DNA of 64,000 nt from an uncultured Desulfovibrionaceae bacterium (lineage in GTDB: Bacteria; Desulfobacterota; Desulfovibrionia; Desulfovibrionales; Desulfovibrionaceae). The translations under genes were made by a program, and so were the position numbers. Positions within the stretch are counted from its first letter, which is position 1. The number at the start of each line of letters is the position of its first letter. Positions 55,665 to 63,045 of this stretch are shown here, piece by piece. The stretch spans positions 1 through 64,000 of the forward strand of contig CASGAP010000003.1 in assembly GCA_949299515.1 (NCBI GenBank), in the 5' to 3' direction. The notes below the pieces were generated by a model. It searched no databases. It was not told the DNA's origin and saw nothing but the letters and a program-made list of their open reading frames with translations.

Positions 55665-56396
55665 TTACATTGCTGTTTCTGAATATGAAACTATTATAGC
55701 TTCTGCCTGATCCTTTTTCAAGTAAATTCTTAAACCGGCTTTGTTGGTCAGAATAAAGCGTTCTCCCTGGGCAAGTTTGAAAACAGGTGCATTTTCAACG
55801 GTTTCGAGAACAAGAATATCGCCTTTGCATATGTTGAAAGCCTGCATAATTTTTTGTGTGTTTTCGCCGCCTATGACTTTTTCTACGGTAAAGTTGCTGC
55901 CGGCACAGCCGTTGGCAAACTGGCAGTGTTCGCCGTTTTCCAGCGTGCCCAAAATTTTTGCTGCCATGCCTTCGGAAAGGCGTTCGCGCCGTTTTCCGTT
56001 GATCAGGGTAATGTATTCCATGGGCGGCAGAATCCGGATCATTTCAAATTCCTGTCCGTGTTCAAGTCCCAGGCTTTTCATGGCGCAAAGCAAATCATTT
56101 CCGCCTTCTACGGCTTCGATATGGCCTTTTTCCCCGACTTTCATTTCCGTAAGGGCAATTATTCTGCCGTCGTCGAGATGTCCCAGCACCTTGCCGCCCA
56201 TGCCCCCGCTCAGAACGGTATCGCCGCCTTTGTGGCGGATTTTGACGGTATGCAGATCAAGTTCCGCATTCATACGGTAAATTATACTGCCAACCGTTAT
56301 GCCCGTTCGGAAGAGTTCTTTTTCCAGCTGTTCGCTGTTTATTCTTTCTATGCAGAGAGCTGACCCGTGCGGCGCGTGGATGAAATTGGTAAACAT
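55665..56396 (-). CDS. FeoA-domain protein, multi-domain
   Basis: A 243-residue soluble protein with two or three FeoA-like SH3 domains: about residues 1-75, 80-150 (ALTEMKVGEKGHIEAVEGG...SEGMAAKILG) and 155-243. FeoA domains modulate FeoB or occur at the C-terminus of iron-responsive DtxR regulators. It follows the SCA-type ATPase by 12 bases, so it is cotranscribed. It may adjust or sense iron in the locus. No helix-turn-helix is seen. Confidence 0.75.
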   Translation of the reverse strand: MFTNFIHAPHGSALCIERINSEQLEKELFRTGITVGSIIYRMNAELDLHTVKIRHKGGDTVLSGGMGGKVLGHLDDGRIIALTEMKVGEKGHIEAVEGGNDLLCAMKSLGLEHGQEFEMIRILPPMEYITLINGKRRERLSEGMAAKILGTLENGEHCQFANGCAGSNFTVEKVIGGENTQKIMQAFNICKGDILVLETVENAPVFKLAQGERFILTNKAGLRIYLKKDQAEAIIVSYSETAM

Positions 56397-56408: not shown

Positions 56409-58514
56409 TTAGGCTTTTTTGGGGGCTTTGGTTGCGGAAGAAGCTGTATAGCCGAGGATAGCAATTGTGCTTAAATTATGCAAGAGGGCAGACTTTACGG
56501 GGGTGAGTTTTCCCAGTGTGGCAAGCAGCATAATGAGCGAATTGGCGCTGATGGTGGAGTAGAAGGCATTTTTTAAAATTTGCTGATTTTTCGTGGCGAT
56601 GCCGCGGGCAAGCACCAATGCAGACAAATCTTCTTCCAGCAGAACAACCTGTGCGGATTCGCGCGCAAGATCCGCTCCTTTGGGCATACAAATTCCCACA
56701 TTGGCGGAAAGCAGGGCCGGCGCATCGTTGACGCCGTCGCCCGCAAAACCCAAAATACGGCCTTGGCTTTGCAGTTTTTGGACAATTTGCGCTTTGTCTT
56801 CCGGCTTCAGTTCCCAGAAGACTTCGTCAATATACTGCAGTTCTTCGCAGATTGCCTTGGCTGTGTCTTTGTGGTCGCCCGTAAGCATGACAAAGTGTTT
56901 GATGCCGAGTTTCCTAAGCTGTTTCAGGGTTTCGGGCGCTTCCGGCCGTATTTCGTCGCGCATGGCAATAATGCCGATGAGGGCGTTTTCTTCGGCGATA
57001 TATAAAATGGATTTTCCCTGACTGCGCAGTTTTCCGTCGTATTTGTCCGCATTTTTGCAGGAAATGTGTTCATCGTCTTCCAAAAAGTGGCGGCTGCCCA
57101 CAAGGATTTGTTTTTTGTTTACATAGGCGGAAACGCCGTGGGCAACAATAAAGTCCACCTGGCTGACTTTGGGCAGGGAAAGGTTTCTGTTTTTGGCTTC
57201 CTGCACCACTGCGCGCGCCACGGGGTGTCCGTAGTGTTCTTCCGCGCCTGCGGCAAGAGCCAGCAGTTCATTGTCTGAAAGGGCGTTGCTGAAAGAAATA
57301 ACGTCGGTAATTTCCAGATTTCCTTTGGTCAGCGTGCCTGTTTTGTCAAAAACCAGGGTATCGATCTGCGAAAGCCTGTCCAGTGCCTGGCCGCCTTTGA
57401 GCAGAACACCGTTTTTGCCTGTGCAGTGCATACCGGATTTTACGGCAACAGGCGCGGCAAGTTTCAGGGCGCAGGAATAGTCCACGGTCAGGGCGGAGGC
57501 AGCGCGGCTTAAATCCCTGGTCAGGGCAAAAATGCCCAGTCCAAGTCCAAAAGTGACGGGTACCAGCTTGTCTGCAAGGGCTGTGCTTTGTTTTTGGATA
57601 TCGGAAGGATTGCGCAGGGAGTTTTCCAAAAAGCGGTTGATGCGTGCCATGCTGGTTTCGCGGCCTACGTGGCTGGCCCGTATGCGTATGCGGCCGTCTT
57701 CAATAACGGCGCCCGAAAGGACGTCGTCGCCTTCCTGCACATGGATTGGCAGCGATTCGCCCGTAATGGAACTTTGGTTTACGGCAGCTTCGCCGGAAAC
57801 AACGGTGCCGTCGACGGGGATAAGTTCGCCTGTGCCGCAGATGACGATGTCGCCGACGGCCAGCTCTTTAAACGGAACGGAAATTTCCTTGGCATCGCGT
57901 TCCACCCATACGGTTTCAACCTGCGGTTTGAGCAGTTCCGTCAGCAGGTCGTTGGATTTGTTTTCCGTCCATTGTTCCAGCCAGGAACCAATGCCGAGCA
58001 GGGCGACTATGCTGTTTGCCGTGGCATAGTCTTTGCGCAGAAGAGAAATGAGAACGGCCGTGGCGTCCAGCACTTCCACTTTCAATCCGTCTTTCAGCAG
58101 AGTCTGCACGCCTTTGCTTATTGTGGGGAACCCGAACAGGCAGCTTAGGGCGGAACGTATGCCGGGGGACTGCCATTTGGTGCTTAGGGCGTTGGCTGTT
58201 TTTGCGGCAACGGTTAAAGGGCTTACTTCTTCGTCATGGTATTCTTTTTGTCTGTAAGCGTCGTGGGGAATATGGCTGAGATAACGGATAAAGGCCTGTT
58301 TATGGGCAAATTCGCCGTCATATTCCATAACAATGCTGGCCGCTTTGGGATTGATGCGCACCAAAGAGATTCCCGGCAGGGAAGAAAGGGCAGCCTGCAG
58401 GTAGGCAATGTCAAGATACGGGTCAAGAAGTTTTTTGCCGCTGAAACGGATACGCTTTGCGGTTTCGTGGTTTATTTTAAAGACGCTTTTTTCTTTGGCG
58501 TTCTTTAAGCTCAT
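56409..58514 (-). CDS. fezB: P1B-type metal ATPase with SCA motif (FezB-like, ferrosome)
   Basis: A 701-residue P-type ATPase. Residues 10-80 form a diverged HMA domain without CxxC. TGES (251-254), the phosphorylation motif DKTGTLT (Asp390), the HP signature in YGHPVARAV, and GDGVNDAPAL are all intact, so it should be active. The metal-binding helix reads DYSCALKLAAP (Ser347-Cys348-Ala349) instead of CPC, SPC or TPC. I associate this SCA signature with the P1B-6 group, whose member FezB is needed for ferrosomes. It probably moves iron into a membrane compartment. The start at 58514 follows GGAG; a TTG four codons upstream lies within that site. Confidence 0.8.
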   Translation of the reverse strand: MSLKNAKEKSVFKINHETAKRIRFSGKKLLDPYLDIAYLQAALSSLPGISLVRINPKAASIVMEYDGEFAHKQAFIRYLSHIPHDAYRQKEYHDEEVSPLTVAAKTANALSTKWQSPGIRSALSCLFGFPTISKGVQTLLKDGLKVEVLDATAVLISLLRKDYATANSIVALLGIGSWLEQWTENKSNDLLTELLKPQVETVWVERDAKEISVPFKELAVGDIVICGTGELIPVDGTVVSGEAAVNQSSITGESLPIHVQEGDDVLSGAVIEDGRIRIRASHVGRETSMARINRFLENSLRNPSDIQKQSTALADKLVPVTFGLGLGIFALTRDLSRAASALTVDYSCALKLAAPVAVKSGMHCTGKNGVLLKGGQALDRLSQIDTLVFDKTGTLTKGNLEITDVISFSNALSDNELLALAAGAEEHYGHPVARAVVQEAKNRNLSLPKVSQVDFIVAHGVSAYVNKKQILVGSRHFLEDDEHISCKNADKYDGKLRSQGKSILYIAEENALIGIIAMRDEIRPEAPETLKQLRKLGIKHFVMLTGDHKDTAKAICEELQYIDEVFWELKPEDKAQIVQKLQSQGRILGFAGDGVNDAPALLSANVGICMPKGADLARESAQVVLLEEDLSALVLARGIATKNQQILKNAFYSTISANSLIMLLATLGKLTPVKSALLHNLSTIAILGYTASSATKAPKKA

Positions 58515-58544
58515 GGTTTGCTCCAACGGATTTAACGGAAACGG

Positions 58545-58880
58545 TTACTTTTTCTTGGGCGTGTTTTGGTATGTGTGCAGGGCGCAGAGTCCCAAAAAAG
58601 TCAGGCCTGCGGCAGTATGCACTTTTTTGCCGTACGGCACGGGCAAAAAGCCGGACAAAGCCGTAACCGCAAGGCTGGCAATCATGCCGTGCTTGACAAG
58701 TCTGCGTTTGTCTTTGCTGCTGAGTTTGGGCAGGTTGAAAGCGCATTTAGCGGTGCTTTTTTCTGCTGAGGAACAGGAGCACGTGCTTTCGGATGTATTT
58801 TCGCCGGCTGTGTTTTGCGGTGCTGCTTCGGCATTGCCGCAGCAGGCGGAGCAGGCTGTGTTTTCGGTAATTTCGCTCAT
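58545..58880 (-). CDS. Small Cys-rich two-helix membrane protein in ferrosome-like locus
   Basis: A 111-residue protein. The soluble N-terminus has cysteines at 10, 13, 14, 34, 36 and 46 in CxxCC and CxC patterns, fit for metal binding. Two membrane helices follow (about 62-77 and 85-103) with His residues on them (KHGMIASL, KVHTAAG, ALHTYQN) that resemble heme-ligating helices of DUF4405-like proteins. It lies 30 bases upstream of the SCA ATPase gene in the same direction. A metal or electron-transfer role at the compartment membrane is plausible but unproved. Confidence 0.7.
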   Translation of the reverse strand: MSEITENTACSACCGNAEAAPQNTAGENTSESTCSCSSAEKSTAKCAFNLPKLSSKDKRRLVKHGMIASLAVTALSGFLPVPYGKKVHTAAGLTFLGLCALHTYQNTPKKK

Positions 58881-58909: not shown

Positions 58910-59269
58910 CTATTCTTCGTTGCTGAGTTCCGCTTTAATATCCTGGATCTGTTCTTTCATTTCTTCAAAGCTGCCCTGTACGGAGGTAAAAAGGCGGACG
59001 GAAGCCGCAATCACGGCTTGCTGCACTGTTTTATTGGTGGCGACATAGGCAATGCCGGCTCCGAGCAGCAGACCCTTTAAAAAGGCCGGGCTTTTGTACA
59101 GCGGGGTTTGGGCTGATGTTGTGTCTGTTGCGCTCATGTTGGGAAAATCCTTTATAAAATCTTGTGCGTTGGTAAATTTGTAATTTTCAAAAAGTTTCGC
59201 GGCAGCATCGGGGTTGTCTTTGTACGATTTATATGCGTCAAGCGATTTGTTGAGAAAATCTTTGGGCAT
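58910..59269 (-). CDS. Small single-pass membrane protein in ferrosome-like locus
   Basis: A 119-residue protein: an amphipathic, charged N-terminal part (1-58), one membrane segment (about 62-78, FLKGLLLGAGIAYVA), then an amphipathic helix and an acidic coiled-coil tail (95-119). The FxKGLxxGAG segment recurs in the neighbouring 236-residue protein, so the two share a membrane module. Related small proteins with glycine-rich helices (DUF6110/YtxH-like) accompany P1B-6 ATPases in ferrosome clusters; the match is by pattern only. Confidence 0.7.
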   Translation of the reverse strand: MPKDFLNKSLDAYKSYKDNPDAAAKLFENYKFTNAQDFIKDFPNMSATDTTSAQTPLYKSPAFLKGLLLGAGIAYVATNKTVQQAVIAASVRLFTSVQGSFEEMKEQIQDIKAELSNEE

Positions 59270-59299: not shown

Positions 59300-59653
59300 T
59301 TATTCGGCGGCGGTATCGGCCTGTTCGGAAGTGCTGTTTTGGGCTTCGGTGCTGTCGTCGGTCAGTGCGCTGTCCAAAGCGTATTTGGTGCCTGCCGTGA
59401 CCAGGGCAACGCTGGCAATGGAAAGAATGCCGCTTATGCCCAAAAGCGCCGTGGCCGTAACGCCGACGCTGGTGGCAAGGCCAAGGCTTCCTGATTCTTT
59501 AATGATTTCTTTGCCTGCCTGTTTCGGGGTCATTTCGCCTTTTTTAATTTTTTTCAGGGTACGGACGCTTGTAAGCGTTGCGCCTGTTACTACTCCGGCA
59601 ATAAAACCGCCGAAAGCCGTGGCTGCGATAACCGGTTTTGGTGAAGCTGCCAT
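59300..59653 (-). CDS. MamC-like (Mms13-like) membrane protein in ferrosome-like locus
   Basis: A 117-residue protein with two hydrophobic helices (about 8-29 and 57-92) joined by a charged loop (30-55). By eye it lines up with magnetosome protein MamC: VRxLK, then (I/M)T...A...KE, GLAT, a Gly/Ala-rich second helix, ALV and KYAxD. In MamC the equivalent loop lies in the magnetosome lumen and binds growing magnetite. If the match holds, this protein may steer iron mineral or bind the compartment content. It is only four bases from the upstream gene. The acidic C-terminal tail (97-117) is unlike MamC. Confidence 0.7.
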   Translation of the reverse strand: MAASPKPVIAATAFGGFIAGVVTGATLTSVRTLKKIKKGEMTPKQAGKEIIKESGSLGLATSVGVTATALLGISGILSIASVALVTAGTKYALDSALTDDSTEAQNSTSEQADTAAE

Positions 59654-59656
59654 TGT

Positions 59657-60367
59657 TTATTCCTCGCTTTCCGCATTTGCGGGTTCATCGGCCTGCGTGC
59701 AGCCGCATTGTTCGGTTTCTTCCGTTGCCGCCTGTGATGCGAAAAGTCCGGCAAGCATGGTTTTCAGCGGAGTGCAGTTAAAAAGCAGAACGGCGCCTGC
59801 TCCTATTGCCAGTCCTTTCCAAAAATCGCCGTTGGTGCCCTGCAGTATGCCGAGGAGTTTGCCCGGGTCGGGGTTGCCGTTTATGGCGTCGTTCACGACG
59901 GCATAAATTTCCTGAATTTTTTCTTGGGTAAGGCCTTGGCGCTGTGCGGCGTTATTGTCGCGGGCATCGTCGGAATCCGCATTTTGTCCTAAGGGGCCGA
60001 ATGCGGCAAATCCCGGATTTTGCTGTGCGTATGCGGCCTGCTGCGCCATGAAGGGCGGGCAGTACGGGTAATGTCCGAAACGGTGCATACCGTAAGCATG
60101 GAAAGGCGGATACGCCATGTATACGGGAGCGCCGTAGGGGACGGCAAAGCCCGGGGTCTGTCCTTGGTACGGGCCGTATCCCTGATAGGCATTTGCGTAT
60201 GCCGCGGCATTTTGGGCTGCGGGATTTTCTTCCGTATCGCCGTTGTTTTCCGCGGGAACAAAACCGTACACCGGATCAAAGCGGTAGGTTTGATTGGGGT
60301 CAAAAGCCGGTGCCGCCGTATTCTGCACCGTCGGCTGAACATAGGGGTCTTTTGCTGAACTGCTCAT
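59657..60367 (-). CDS. Tyr/Pro/Ala-rich membrane protein in ferrosome-like locus
   Basis: A 236-residue protein. Residues 1-130 are low complexity, rich in Ala, Pro, Tyr, Gly and Asn with PY-type turns (YGPYQG, GFAVPYGAPVY, HYPYCPPF). A helical stretch (145-178) and one membrane helix (about 182-198, FWKGLAIGAGAVLLF) follow, then a tail with a CGC pair. Such low-complexity regions can self-assemble, so it may organise or coat the compartment. The start at 60367 follows GAGG; a 30-codon longer frame overlaps the HMA gene and lacks a site. The helix resembles that of the 119-residue neighbour. Confidence 0.7.
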   Translation of the reverse strand: MSSSAKDPYVQPTVQNTAAPAFDPNQTYRFDPVYGFVPAENNGDTEENPAAQNAAAYANAYQGYGPYQGQTPGFAVPYGAPVYMAYPPFHAYGMHRFGHYPYCPPFMAQQAAYAQQNPGFAAFGPLGQNADSDDARDNNAAQRQGLTQEKIQEIYAVVNDAINGNPDPGKLLGILQGTNGDFWKGLAIGAGAVLLFNCTPLKTMLAGLFASQAATEETEQCGCTQADEPANAESEE

Positions 60368-60377
60368 AATAACCTCG

Positions 60378-60692
60378 TCAGGCCAACAGTTTTGCGTGGT
60401 ATTCTTCCGCAAGCTGAAGAAAGCGTTCTTCGTTCTTGGTGGTAAGAATTTCTTCAAAATCGTCAGCCTTGATACTGTCGGTATCGTATTTGATTGTTAT
60501 TGTTTGGGTAAAAATATTGACTTTGGTATCCAAAATGGCTTTGGGCATGGGTTTGTTTTTAAACTCTGCAATAAGCTCTTGCACCTTTGGGTCGGAAAGG
60601 GCGGCAAAAGCAATTTTCAGTTTAATTGTTCCTGCTTTGTGTTCGGCAAGTGTAAGGTATCTGCGCAGTGCGGCAAGGCTTGCTTTGTTCAT
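60378..60692 (-). CDS. Stand-alone HMA-like domain protein in ferrosome-like locus
   Basis: A 104-residue protein with a diverged heavy-metal-associated fold (HMA_2-like): EHKAGTIKLKI, then a helix, then ITIKYDTDSI, then a closing helix. No CxxC is present. The same pattern forms the N-terminus of both ATPases here. A free HMA-domain protein (FezC) is a named part of described fez clusters, so this is the likely counterpart. It overlaps the upstream ATPase stop by four bases. Confidence 0.75.
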   Translation of the reverse strand: MNKASLAALRRYLTLAEHKAGTIKLKIAFAALSDPKVQELIAEFKNKPMPKAILDTKVNIFTQTITIKYDTDSIKADDFEEILTTKNEERFLQLAEEYHAKLLA

Positions 60693-62926
60693 GATCGCTC
60701 CGTTTGCGGTAATGATTTTGGATTTTTCTTTACATCATAATAGACTAAACGGGTTGAGTTAGCAAGAACGCCCATGGTGTGGGCAATGTGCAGAAAACCT
60801 GCCGTAACGGGCGACAGTATGCCGAAAGCGGCAAGAAAGAGCCCTGCCAGGTTGGAGCCCGTGGCTATCCAGAAATTTTGGTAAACGGTTTTTATGGTTT
60901 GTTTGCTGAGGGCATGGACATAGACAATACCATTCAGATTATCGTCCACAAGGGTAATGTCTGCCGCTTCCACCGCTACTTCCGAACCGCCGTCGCCCAT
61001 GGCGATTCCTATGTCGGCACGGGCTAGCGCCATGGCGTCGTTTATACCGTCGCCTATCATGATGACGGAGCCGTGTTTTTCCTGCAGTTCTTTGATGATT
61101 GCGCCTTTGTCTTCGGGCATTACGGAGGAATAAAAGGTATCAATGCCCAGTTTGCCGCAAAGTTTTTGTGCGGAATAATATTCGTCGCCCGTAATCAGAT
61201 AGGTATGTCTAATACCGCTGTTTTTGAGGGTCTGAATAACTTCTTTTGCTTCGCTGCGGATAATGTTGTCAAAGGTCAGCAGGGCTATAAGTTCTTTGTT
61301 TTTGGCTGCGTACAGCATGGTTTGGCCGTTGTGTACGCACTCTTTTTCATAGGCGGTGACTGCGGCGTCCTGAATGTTTATGCCGTGCTGCCGCATGATT
61401 TTTGCGTTGCCGACAATGATTTCGTTGCCGAGGACTTCCGCCAGAATGCCCATGCCCAGGAAATATTCGCAGAACGTATGGGGAATGGGGGATATGCCGT
61501 GTTTTTCCGCTTCATGCTTAATGGCCGCGGCCAAGGGGTGATGGTTGTGGCTTTCAGCGGAAACAAGCATCTGCAGGAACGCTTTTTCTTCGGGCAGGTT
61601 CTTGTCTTCCGCATTCAGGTAATAGGCATTGCTTTCTTTGAGCAGTTTTATGTCCACAAGTTCCGGTTCCGTGGTAGTAAGCGTGCCGGTTTTGTCAAAG
61701 CATACGCAGGAGGCCGTGCCGACCTGTTCCAGATATTTGCCGCCTTTGATAAGGATTTTGCGTTTGACGGCGGCGTTCATGGCCGCGCTTACCGCAGTGC
61801 TTGCCGCAAGAACCGTGGCGCAGGGGCAGGCCATGACCAGCATGACCGTAAAAGCGCGCCATATGTTTTGGGTAAGCAGATAGGTGGCGCCGGTGGCGAT
61901 AAGTCCCAAACGCACCAGATTTTTGGCAAGGCGGTCGGCAACCAGTTCGACCGGGGCTTTGTTTTTCAGGCTGTCTTCCACTTGGCATAAGATGCGGGAC
62001 AGGTAGGTTTCGTCCCCTACTTTGTCGGCGCATACGTAAATAAGCCCCTGACGGACAAAGGTACCCGCAAGCACGGTGTCGCCTATGTTGCGGGGAATGA
62101 AATCCGTTCTGCCGGTTATGGGAGATTCGTCGATAAGGGCGTTGCCGTCGATAATTTCGCCGTCTATGCAGATTTTTTCGCCTGTATGCAGAACAACGAT
62201 GTCGCCTTTTTTCAGGTCTTCGGTTTTTACTTCGACTTCAACGCCTTCCACCAGCTTAAATGTATGGTGTGACGTTGCCTGCAGTATGCCGGCAATGGAT
62301 TTTCTTGAGCGTTCGGTAATCCATGCCTGCAAGAGTTCCGCTCCGGAGTTGATCCATAAAATTTCCAGGGCTGTCAGAGCCTGGCCCGACAGTACGGAAG
62401 CAATGCAGCCTCCGCCCAGGAAGGCGTCCAGACCGAATTTTTTCTTTTTAAAGCTTTTGTATCCGTCATAAATGAGCGGAAGGGAGAAAAGCGTGCTTAT
62501 GATGCCGACGGGGCTGAACAGGGTTTGGCTGACGGCAATGCCGAAAACGGTGCTGCGCAGAAAAACGCCGCCCATAACCGCAGACAGCACGCCAAAGCGC
62601 GCCAGAGCCGGTTTTACCAGTTTTTCTTCCGAGCTTATGGAGCATACTTCGCAGTTCTGGCATTGGACTTTCTGCGGTTTATGCAGGCCGGAACCGGCAA
62701 GACGCGCTTCCAAGAAAGCGATAAGGTCTTTGAGCGGCAGAACCGTGCTGTCGTAATTGATGACAACGGAACGGCAGGCACTGTTGGAACGGACAAAGAA
62801 TACGCCTTCAATCGCGCCGAGGCTGGTTTCAAGGGTTTTGTACGCGTCCTGTCCAAAGGAGCTGCGGCTGATTTTTATTCTCAGTCTGCCTTTGATATTG
62901 TGTTTTATGCTGAAACTTTTTTTCAT
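60689..62926 (-). CDS. P1B-type metal ATPase with CPC motif and HMA-like N-terminus
   Basis: A 745-residue P-type ATPase. Residues 5-75 are an HMA_2-like domain without CxxC. A Cys set (Cys89, Cys92, Cys95) follows and may bind metal. The transport motif is ACPCATVLA, and DKTGTLT and GDGINDAMAL are present. The actuator loop reads TGRTD where TGES is usual, so the conserved dephosphorylation Glu is missing; this is a notable oddity. The HP motif reads HHPLAAAIKHE. CPC P1B pumps usually move Cu(I), but the substrate here is open. It is the first gene of the locus. Confidence 0.85.
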   Translation of the reverse strand: MKKSFSIKHNIKGRLRIKISRSSFGQDAYKTLETSLGAIEGVFFVRSNSACRSVVINYDSTVLPLKDLIAFLEARLAGSGLHKPQKVQCQNCEVCSISSEEKLVKPALARFGVLSAVMGGVFLRSTVFGIAVSQTLFSPVGIISTLFSLPLIYDGYKSFKKKKFGLDAFLGGGCIASVLSGQALTALEILWINSGAELLQAWITERSRKSIAGILQATSHHTFKLVEGVEVEVKTEDLKKGDIVVLHTGEKICIDGEIIDGNALIDESPITGRTDFIPRNIGDTVLAGTFVRQGLIYVCADKVGDETYLSRILCQVEDSLKNKAPVELVADRLAKNLVRLGLIATGATYLLTQNIWRAFTVMLVMACPCATVLAASTAVSAAMNAAVKRKILIKGGKYLEQVGTASCVCFDKTGTLTTTEPELVDIKLLKESNAYYLNAEDKNLPEEKAFLQMLVSAESHNHHPLAAAIKHEAEKHGISPIPHTFCEYFLGMGILAEVLGNEIIVGNAKIMRQHGINIQDAAVTAYEKECVHNGQTMLYAAKNKELIALLTFDNIIRSEAKEVIQTLKNSGIRHTYLITGDEYYSAQKLCGKLGIDTFYSSVMPEDKGAIIKELQEKHGSVIMIGDGINDAMALARADIGIAMGDGGSEVAVEAADITLVDDNLNGIVYVHALSKQTIKTVYQNFWIATGSNLAGLFLAAFGILSPVTAGFLHIAHTMGVLANSTRLVYYDVKKNPKSLPQTERS

Positions 62927-62927
62927 G

Positions 62928-63000
62928 ATATATACTTTTTTTATTGTTTAATGTTGCAAAAAGTATATACTATTTAATTTAATATGTAAATGAATTTCAA
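62928..63000 (-). promoter_or_regulatory. Promoter and inverted-repeat operator before the ferrosome-like locus
   Basis: On the minus strand TTGAAA (63000-62995) and TTAAAT (62977-62972) have 17-base spacing and could be a sigma-70 promoter. Directly after it is a 12-bp inverted repeat, AAAAAGTATATA at 62958-62969 with TATATACTTTTT at 62929-62940, spaced by 17 bases. It ends just before the ATG at 62926. It could be an operator or an mRNA stem near the start. The sequence is not a Fur box. Confidence 0.5.
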
Positions 63001-63045
63001 CTTCATGGTTTTAAAAAAATAATCGTAAAAGATAATCTGTTGATT

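Follow-up and report, generated by a model that had tools for sequence, protein, structure and literature searches.

The window, a 64,000-nucleotide stretch of DNA, encodes a small protein that is, judged from its sequence, a genuine relative of the magnetosome membrane protein MamC. Its gene lies in a ferrosome-type operon. Since a genuine relative of MamC is found in a ferrosome cluster, the two iron organelles have a common building block. In our view it is likely that this protein belongs to the MamC family as a divergent member, that it is a structural component of the ferrosome membrane, and that it shares a common ancestral membrane protein with MamC.

Homology with MamC

A first reading of the sequence alone had proposed an ORF of 117 residues that resembles MamC. 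The ORF is found on the minus strand, with an ATG start and GAGGA 7 bases upstream. All the motifs quoted in the sequence-only reading are present: VRTLK (residues 30-34), T42...A46...KE52-53, GLAT (58-61), ALV and KYALD (90-94). The best family for the protein is NCBIfam NF038051 (MamC), with 33.4 bits and E 4e-8. Residues 9-96 align with positions 5-92 of the profile (88 of its 97 positions), and the similarity takes in the charged loop and the KY..D end. A genome-wide search for the MamC family gives this single match in the genome of the window. The remark in the sequence-only reading that the window has no further mam gene was checked for this one family.

A set of 30 relatives from the same family as the window was then compared with MamC. 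All 30 match MamC (best E 3e-17) and none of the other families is matched consistently. With a custom MamC HMM, built from 20 true MamC sequences, the window protein scores 34.1 bits and the 30 relatives score 24.0-61.6 bits. The best of 6,000 composition-preserving shuffles reaches 13.6 bits and the best reversed sequence 3.0. The HMM-HMM comparison that had been suggested as a check gives 99.3% in hhalign for the profile of the relatives against true MamC (E 9.1e-21, 102 columns). Controls with other small proteins of the cluster, 20 column shuffles and a reversed profile give at most 2.3%. Thus, the homology is significant and nearly full-length, and the proposed resemblance to MamC is borne out by the profile match, by hhalign and by the predicted helix boundaries described below. 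Pfam contains a family for neither MamC nor the ferrosome-type group, and a PDB sequence search with the window protein returned no match.

Among the MamC matches, that of the window protein belongs to the weaker ones (33 bits). Because it is only 23% identical to MamC in single-sequence comparison, its case leans on intermediates such as L023, which shows 50% identity over 70 columns with the MamC of Magnetospirillum moscoviense.

By its score and its surroundings, the window protein is a relative of MamC and not MamC. NF038051 is an equivalog model with a curated cut-off of 100 bits, which the window protein does not reach. True MamC sequences score 117-149 bits, and the highest ferrosome-type relative 62. 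The true MamC genes whose surroundings were scanned with NCBIfam sit among mam genes. In contrast, the window gene was placed outside a magnetosome cluster from the start, rightly so, and its neighbors are ferrosome-type genes. MamC (Mms13), a magnetosome membrane protein of magnetotactic Pseudomonadota, and the window protein are of the same length class, and their domains align without gaps. G20, G24, E53, G58, A60, K90, Y91 and D94, mainly structural residues, are common to the MamC and ferrosome-type sets; the window protein also shares T61 with MamC. It differs from MamC by the absence of the N-terminal FxLA..LAxS segment and of the magnetite-contacting pair, and by its ferrosome-type operon without mam genes.

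Organization of the ferrosome-type operon

The operon is composed of eight closely spaced genes on the same strand, from 62926 down to 55665 (Table 1). It starts with a CPC ATPase, followed by the HMA-like, Gly/Pro/Tyr-rich and MamC-like genes, the small membrane protein, the FezC-like protein, a DYSCA ATPase and the FeoA-domain protein. The DYSCA motif contains SCA, which we take to be the mark of P1B-6 ATPases. For this reason, the DYSCA ATPase is likely FezB, of P1B-6-like type, as far as its sequence motif tells. The match of the FezC-like protein to Pfam DUF4405 is below the cut-off (E 0.16). The protein nevertheless keeps, in alignment, both of the histidines that do not vary across its relatives and that are common to DUF4405/FezC cytochromes. 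FezC itself is described as a DUF4405-like cytochrome (PMC10979944).

Table 1 Features of the operon and of its MamC-like protein, in window positions
Feature	Position	Strand	Evidence or remark
First cluster P1B-type ATPase, called FezB1 here; CPC motif, N-terminal HMA_2-like	60689..62926	(-)	TIGR01525 E 1e-143, motif
Small HMA-like protein, cluster-conserved	60378..60692	(-)	Position, relatives
Gly/Pro/Tyr-rich protein, hydrophobic tail, cluster-conserved	59657..60457	(-)	True start probably inside listed ORF
MamC-like ferrosome membrane protein (predicted location)	59300..59653	(-)	117 aa; NCBIfam MamC E 4e-8, hhalign, shuffle control
Predicted helix 1 (residues 6-37), glycine-zipper G20, G24	59543..59638	(-)	AlphaFold2, pLDDT about 79 there
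Loop equivalent to MamC magnetite-interacting segment (residues 31-53, RTLKKIKKGEMTPKQAGKEIIKE)	59495..59563	(-)	Joint alignment, charge count
Predicted helix 2 (residues 43-71), KE 52-53 and GLAT 58-61	59441..59527	(-)	AlphaFold2
Predicted helix 3 (residues 76-108), KYALD 90-94	59330..59428	(-)	AlphaFold2
Small membrane protein, charged C-terminal helix, cluster-conserved	58910..59269	(-)	
FezC-like (DUF4405-like cytochrome family) protein, two invariant histidines	58545..58880	(-)	Weak DUF4405 match, alignment
P-type ATPase with DYSCA motif, likely FezB (P1B-6 type)	56409..58526	(-)	TIGR01525 E 5e-147, motif
FeoA-domain protein, operon end	55665..56396	(-)	Pfam FeoA E 1e-11

The operon of the window resembles the Fez operons as outlined in Grant 2022 and PMC10979944: a P1B-6-like ATPase with SCA is encoded together with a FezC-like protein and a number of small membrane proteins. 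It differs by its two different P-type ATPases and its FeoA-domain protein. At some loci (L025:10139-12229, L087:10645-12729 and L041:12032-14146) a third P-type ATPase, of FezB2 type, follows the FeoA-domain gene. The AT-rich stretch before the operon (62927-63045) contains AGTATATACT as well as a second AGTATATAT, which might be a site for a regulator.

Predicted structure and the MamC loop

AlphaFold2 models of the window protein and of MamC were made from separate alignments. The window protein is predicted with helices at residues 6-37, 43-71 and 76-108, at middling confidence (pLDDT 73, pTM 0.47). In the MamC model (pLDDT 69) helices span 13-37, 43-68 and 74-122, in a numbering that corresponds to that of the window protein without gaps. 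The comparison with the MamC hairpin that had been called for therefore yields near-identical predicted helix boundaries in the two models. The glycines of helix 1, G20 and G24, are common to MamC. A Foldseek search with the predicted models gave no significant match. The best fold matches of the models of the window protein and of a MamC (L049:9001-9369) include Tim17/22/23-type or complex I B14.7/NDUFA11-type proteins, at Z 5-8, which is below the trusted level for helical proteins.

MamC contacts magnetite through an acidic pair, Glu66/Asp70 (PMC6206293, PMC6584501; the former prints the letters as Asp66/Glu70). This pair is not kept in the window protein, where Gln45/Glu49 replace it and the net charge of the loop is +5. 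Both positions are acidic in 30 of the 32 MamC proteins versus 21 of the 58 ferrosome-type proteins. As read from the alignments, the scaffold is conserved between MamC and the ferrosome set, and the magnetite-contacting acidic pair is not.

The sequence-only reading had raised the idea of a shared mineral-templating module. According to it, the loop helix would face the lumen as in MamC, and its acidic residues would steer nucleation or growth of the iron deposit. Several features are consistent with such a role: the loop can be aligned with the MamC segment, its invariant KE motif is mostly kept (E in 49/58 ferrosome-type proteins), both acids are retained in L023, the closest ferrosome-type relative of MamC, and the profile of the relatives, when used alone, finds 6eqz, a MamC loop fusion in the PDB, albeit only at E 0.64. 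Against this stand the replaced pair, the positive charge of the loop and its low conservation, lower than in any other part of the ferrosome-set proteins. Moreover, ferrosome granules are described as rich in Fe, in some cases with P and O, and as distinct from magnetosomes (PMC9160268). We regard templating as unlikely, and for the window protein the idea is unsupported.

Distribution of the MamC-like genes

In the family of the window, 149 genomes were compared. A MamC-like match (threshold 1e-3) is present in 27 of them, and the first cluster ATPase (threshold 1e-120) in 27 as well; the two lists are identical. Under independence we estimate the probability of this at about 1 in 10^29, but shared ancestry means that far fewer events are truly independent. 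The 27 genomes belong to 14 of the 44 genera. Within the family, the MamC-like genes are in or beside a fez-type cluster and the gene order is the same. The same position is observed at ten further loci from a search of the class; the loci inspected do not include those of five matching genomes (G191, G201, G208, G213 and G292). Ferrosome-type clusters also carry the gene in this slot in other families of Desulfobacterota (L080-L086) and in Pseudomonadota (L135-L139). Its place among ferrosome operon genes is fixed in several phyla. The conserved slot and the exact co-occurrence with the cluster ATPase bear out the ferrosome setting.

About 700 genomes were sampled across two phyla. Magnetosome or ferrosome-type clusters account for all matches that reach E 1e-4, with the exception of L079. 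None of the 14 control genomes has a MamC-like match at E 1e-4, and the plasmid records contain no MamC-like match and distant ATPases only. A search with a MamC query identified three real MamC loci, confirmed by NCBIfam.

The exception is an orphan MamC-like gene (L079:2776-3153, 61 bits) in a Desulfobacterota genome where FezB was not found. In addition, a MamC-like hairpin stretch is present inside a 657-residue protein (L092:1074-3047), which is encoded on a short contig devoid of fez genes. It scores 28 bits with the NCBIfam model and 17.7 bits with the custom MamC model, hinting at a wider superfamily. A satellite mini-operon is observed near the main fez cluster at L087:13211-14399, L088:11866-13072 and L089:1289-2532. 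Besides an HMA piece and an HMA-like small protein, it encodes a small membrane protein and a second MamC-like protein. Among these additional MamC-like copies are those closest to true MamC. Some genomes with true mamC also have a ferrosome-type cluster (L183:7886-11524, also L181 and L182). In L183, a very divergent protein fills the slot that lies between the HMA-like gene and FezB, and its match to the ferrosome MamC-like model reaches only E 4e-3.

Another explanation is that the proteins belong to a broad and functionally mixed glycine-zipper family of membrane hairpins, of which we would see two branches, the link with iron organelles being incidental. The hairpin stretch of L092, the orphan copy of L079 and the Tim17/22/23-type and B14.7/NDUFA11-type fold matches would fit a generic hairpin. 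However, the confinement of the matches at E 1e-4 to iron-organelle clusters in the sampled genomes, save L079, and the empty control genomes make this explanation improbable. Least probable by far is a chance imitation of MamC by Gly/Ala-rich helices without common descent: Gly, Ala, Thr and Ser are indeed abundant in the protein and its single-sequence identity with MamC is low, but composition fails to account for the similarity, which extends to the charged loop and to the KY..D end, and the shuffle controls, with relatives at 24-62 bits versus at most 13.6 for shuffles, and at most 2.3% for column-shuffled and reversed profiles in hhalign, rule it out.

FezC-like proteins in magnetosome clusters

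The FezC model also matches small two-histidine proteins in magnetosome clusters. The corresponding genes are at L142:9043-9417, L143:11272-11595, L166:8729-9040 and L171:8545-8874. The distance from mamC is about 0.3 kb in L142 and 2 kb in L143. In L166, the neighbors are MamX, MamZ, MamH and a MamD/Mms6-like protein. Comparison of ferrosome-only and magnetosome-only FezC profiles gives 97.9% (E 6e-13), and the control comparison of the MamC-like profile with FezC gives 0.3%. On the basis of these profiles, the FezC-like protein is a second part common to ferrosome and some magnetosome clusters. This link is less specific than that of MamC, because the FezC family is also found elsewhere in MamC-bearing genomes (L175-L178).

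Possible role in the ferrosome membrane

The location of the window protein in a ferrosome membrane, as well as the formation of ferrosomes by this organism, are predicted from the genes only. As a structural component, the protein would insert its glycine-zipper helices in the membrane of the ferrosome, next to FezB and the remaining small proteins of the cluster. The hairpins may pack with each other and with neighboring small proteins around FezB, giving a scaffold. This scaffold would set the shape or the size of the vesicle and keep the iron deposit at the membrane. By analogy, such a role would be comparable to the control of crystal size in magnetosomes by MamGFDC (title of Scheffel 2008, as cited in PMC6584501). 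Direct contact with the iron mineral would be optional, and possible for the members that keep the acidic pair. This contact is probably weak here, since the window protein lacks MamC's acidic pair.

Relation between the two organelles

In a tree of 90 domains, MamC forms one clade with 100/100 support and a long stem of 0.84 changes per column. The tree, built on an 87-column domain, is unrooted and so does not point to a source organelle; the MamC branch separates MamC from all ferrosome-type sequences, which leaves no nesting to be read from it. Magnetosome MamC and the window protein would descend from one ancestral membrane protein. A tentative view, to which we give somewhat less than even weight, is that part of the magnetosome membrane kit came from ferrosomes. 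MamC would then derive from an older and widespread ferrosome membrane protein, and a FezC-type cytochrome would also have entered the magnetosome clusters of magnetococcus-like bacteria.

The sequence-only reading had suggested either an evolutionary link between ferrosomes and magnetosomes or a shared templating module. The first part stands, on the profile match, hhalign, the predicted helix boundaries, the conserved slot and the co-occurrence; for the window protein, the second does not. A partial survey of papers mentioning both ferrosomes and MamC, without the main ferrosome papers (Grant 2022, Pi 2023), found none that claims a relation. There is a modest chance that the homology with MamC already stands in those main papers.

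Ferrosomes and magnetosomes usually count as two genetically separate solutions for membrane-bound iron handling. With a common conserved membrane protein, and in some lineages a related cytochrome as well, the question of whether one organelle reused parts of the other can be put in concrete terms. The ferrosome relative may also serve as a magnetite-free system for learning the role of MamC-type proteins.
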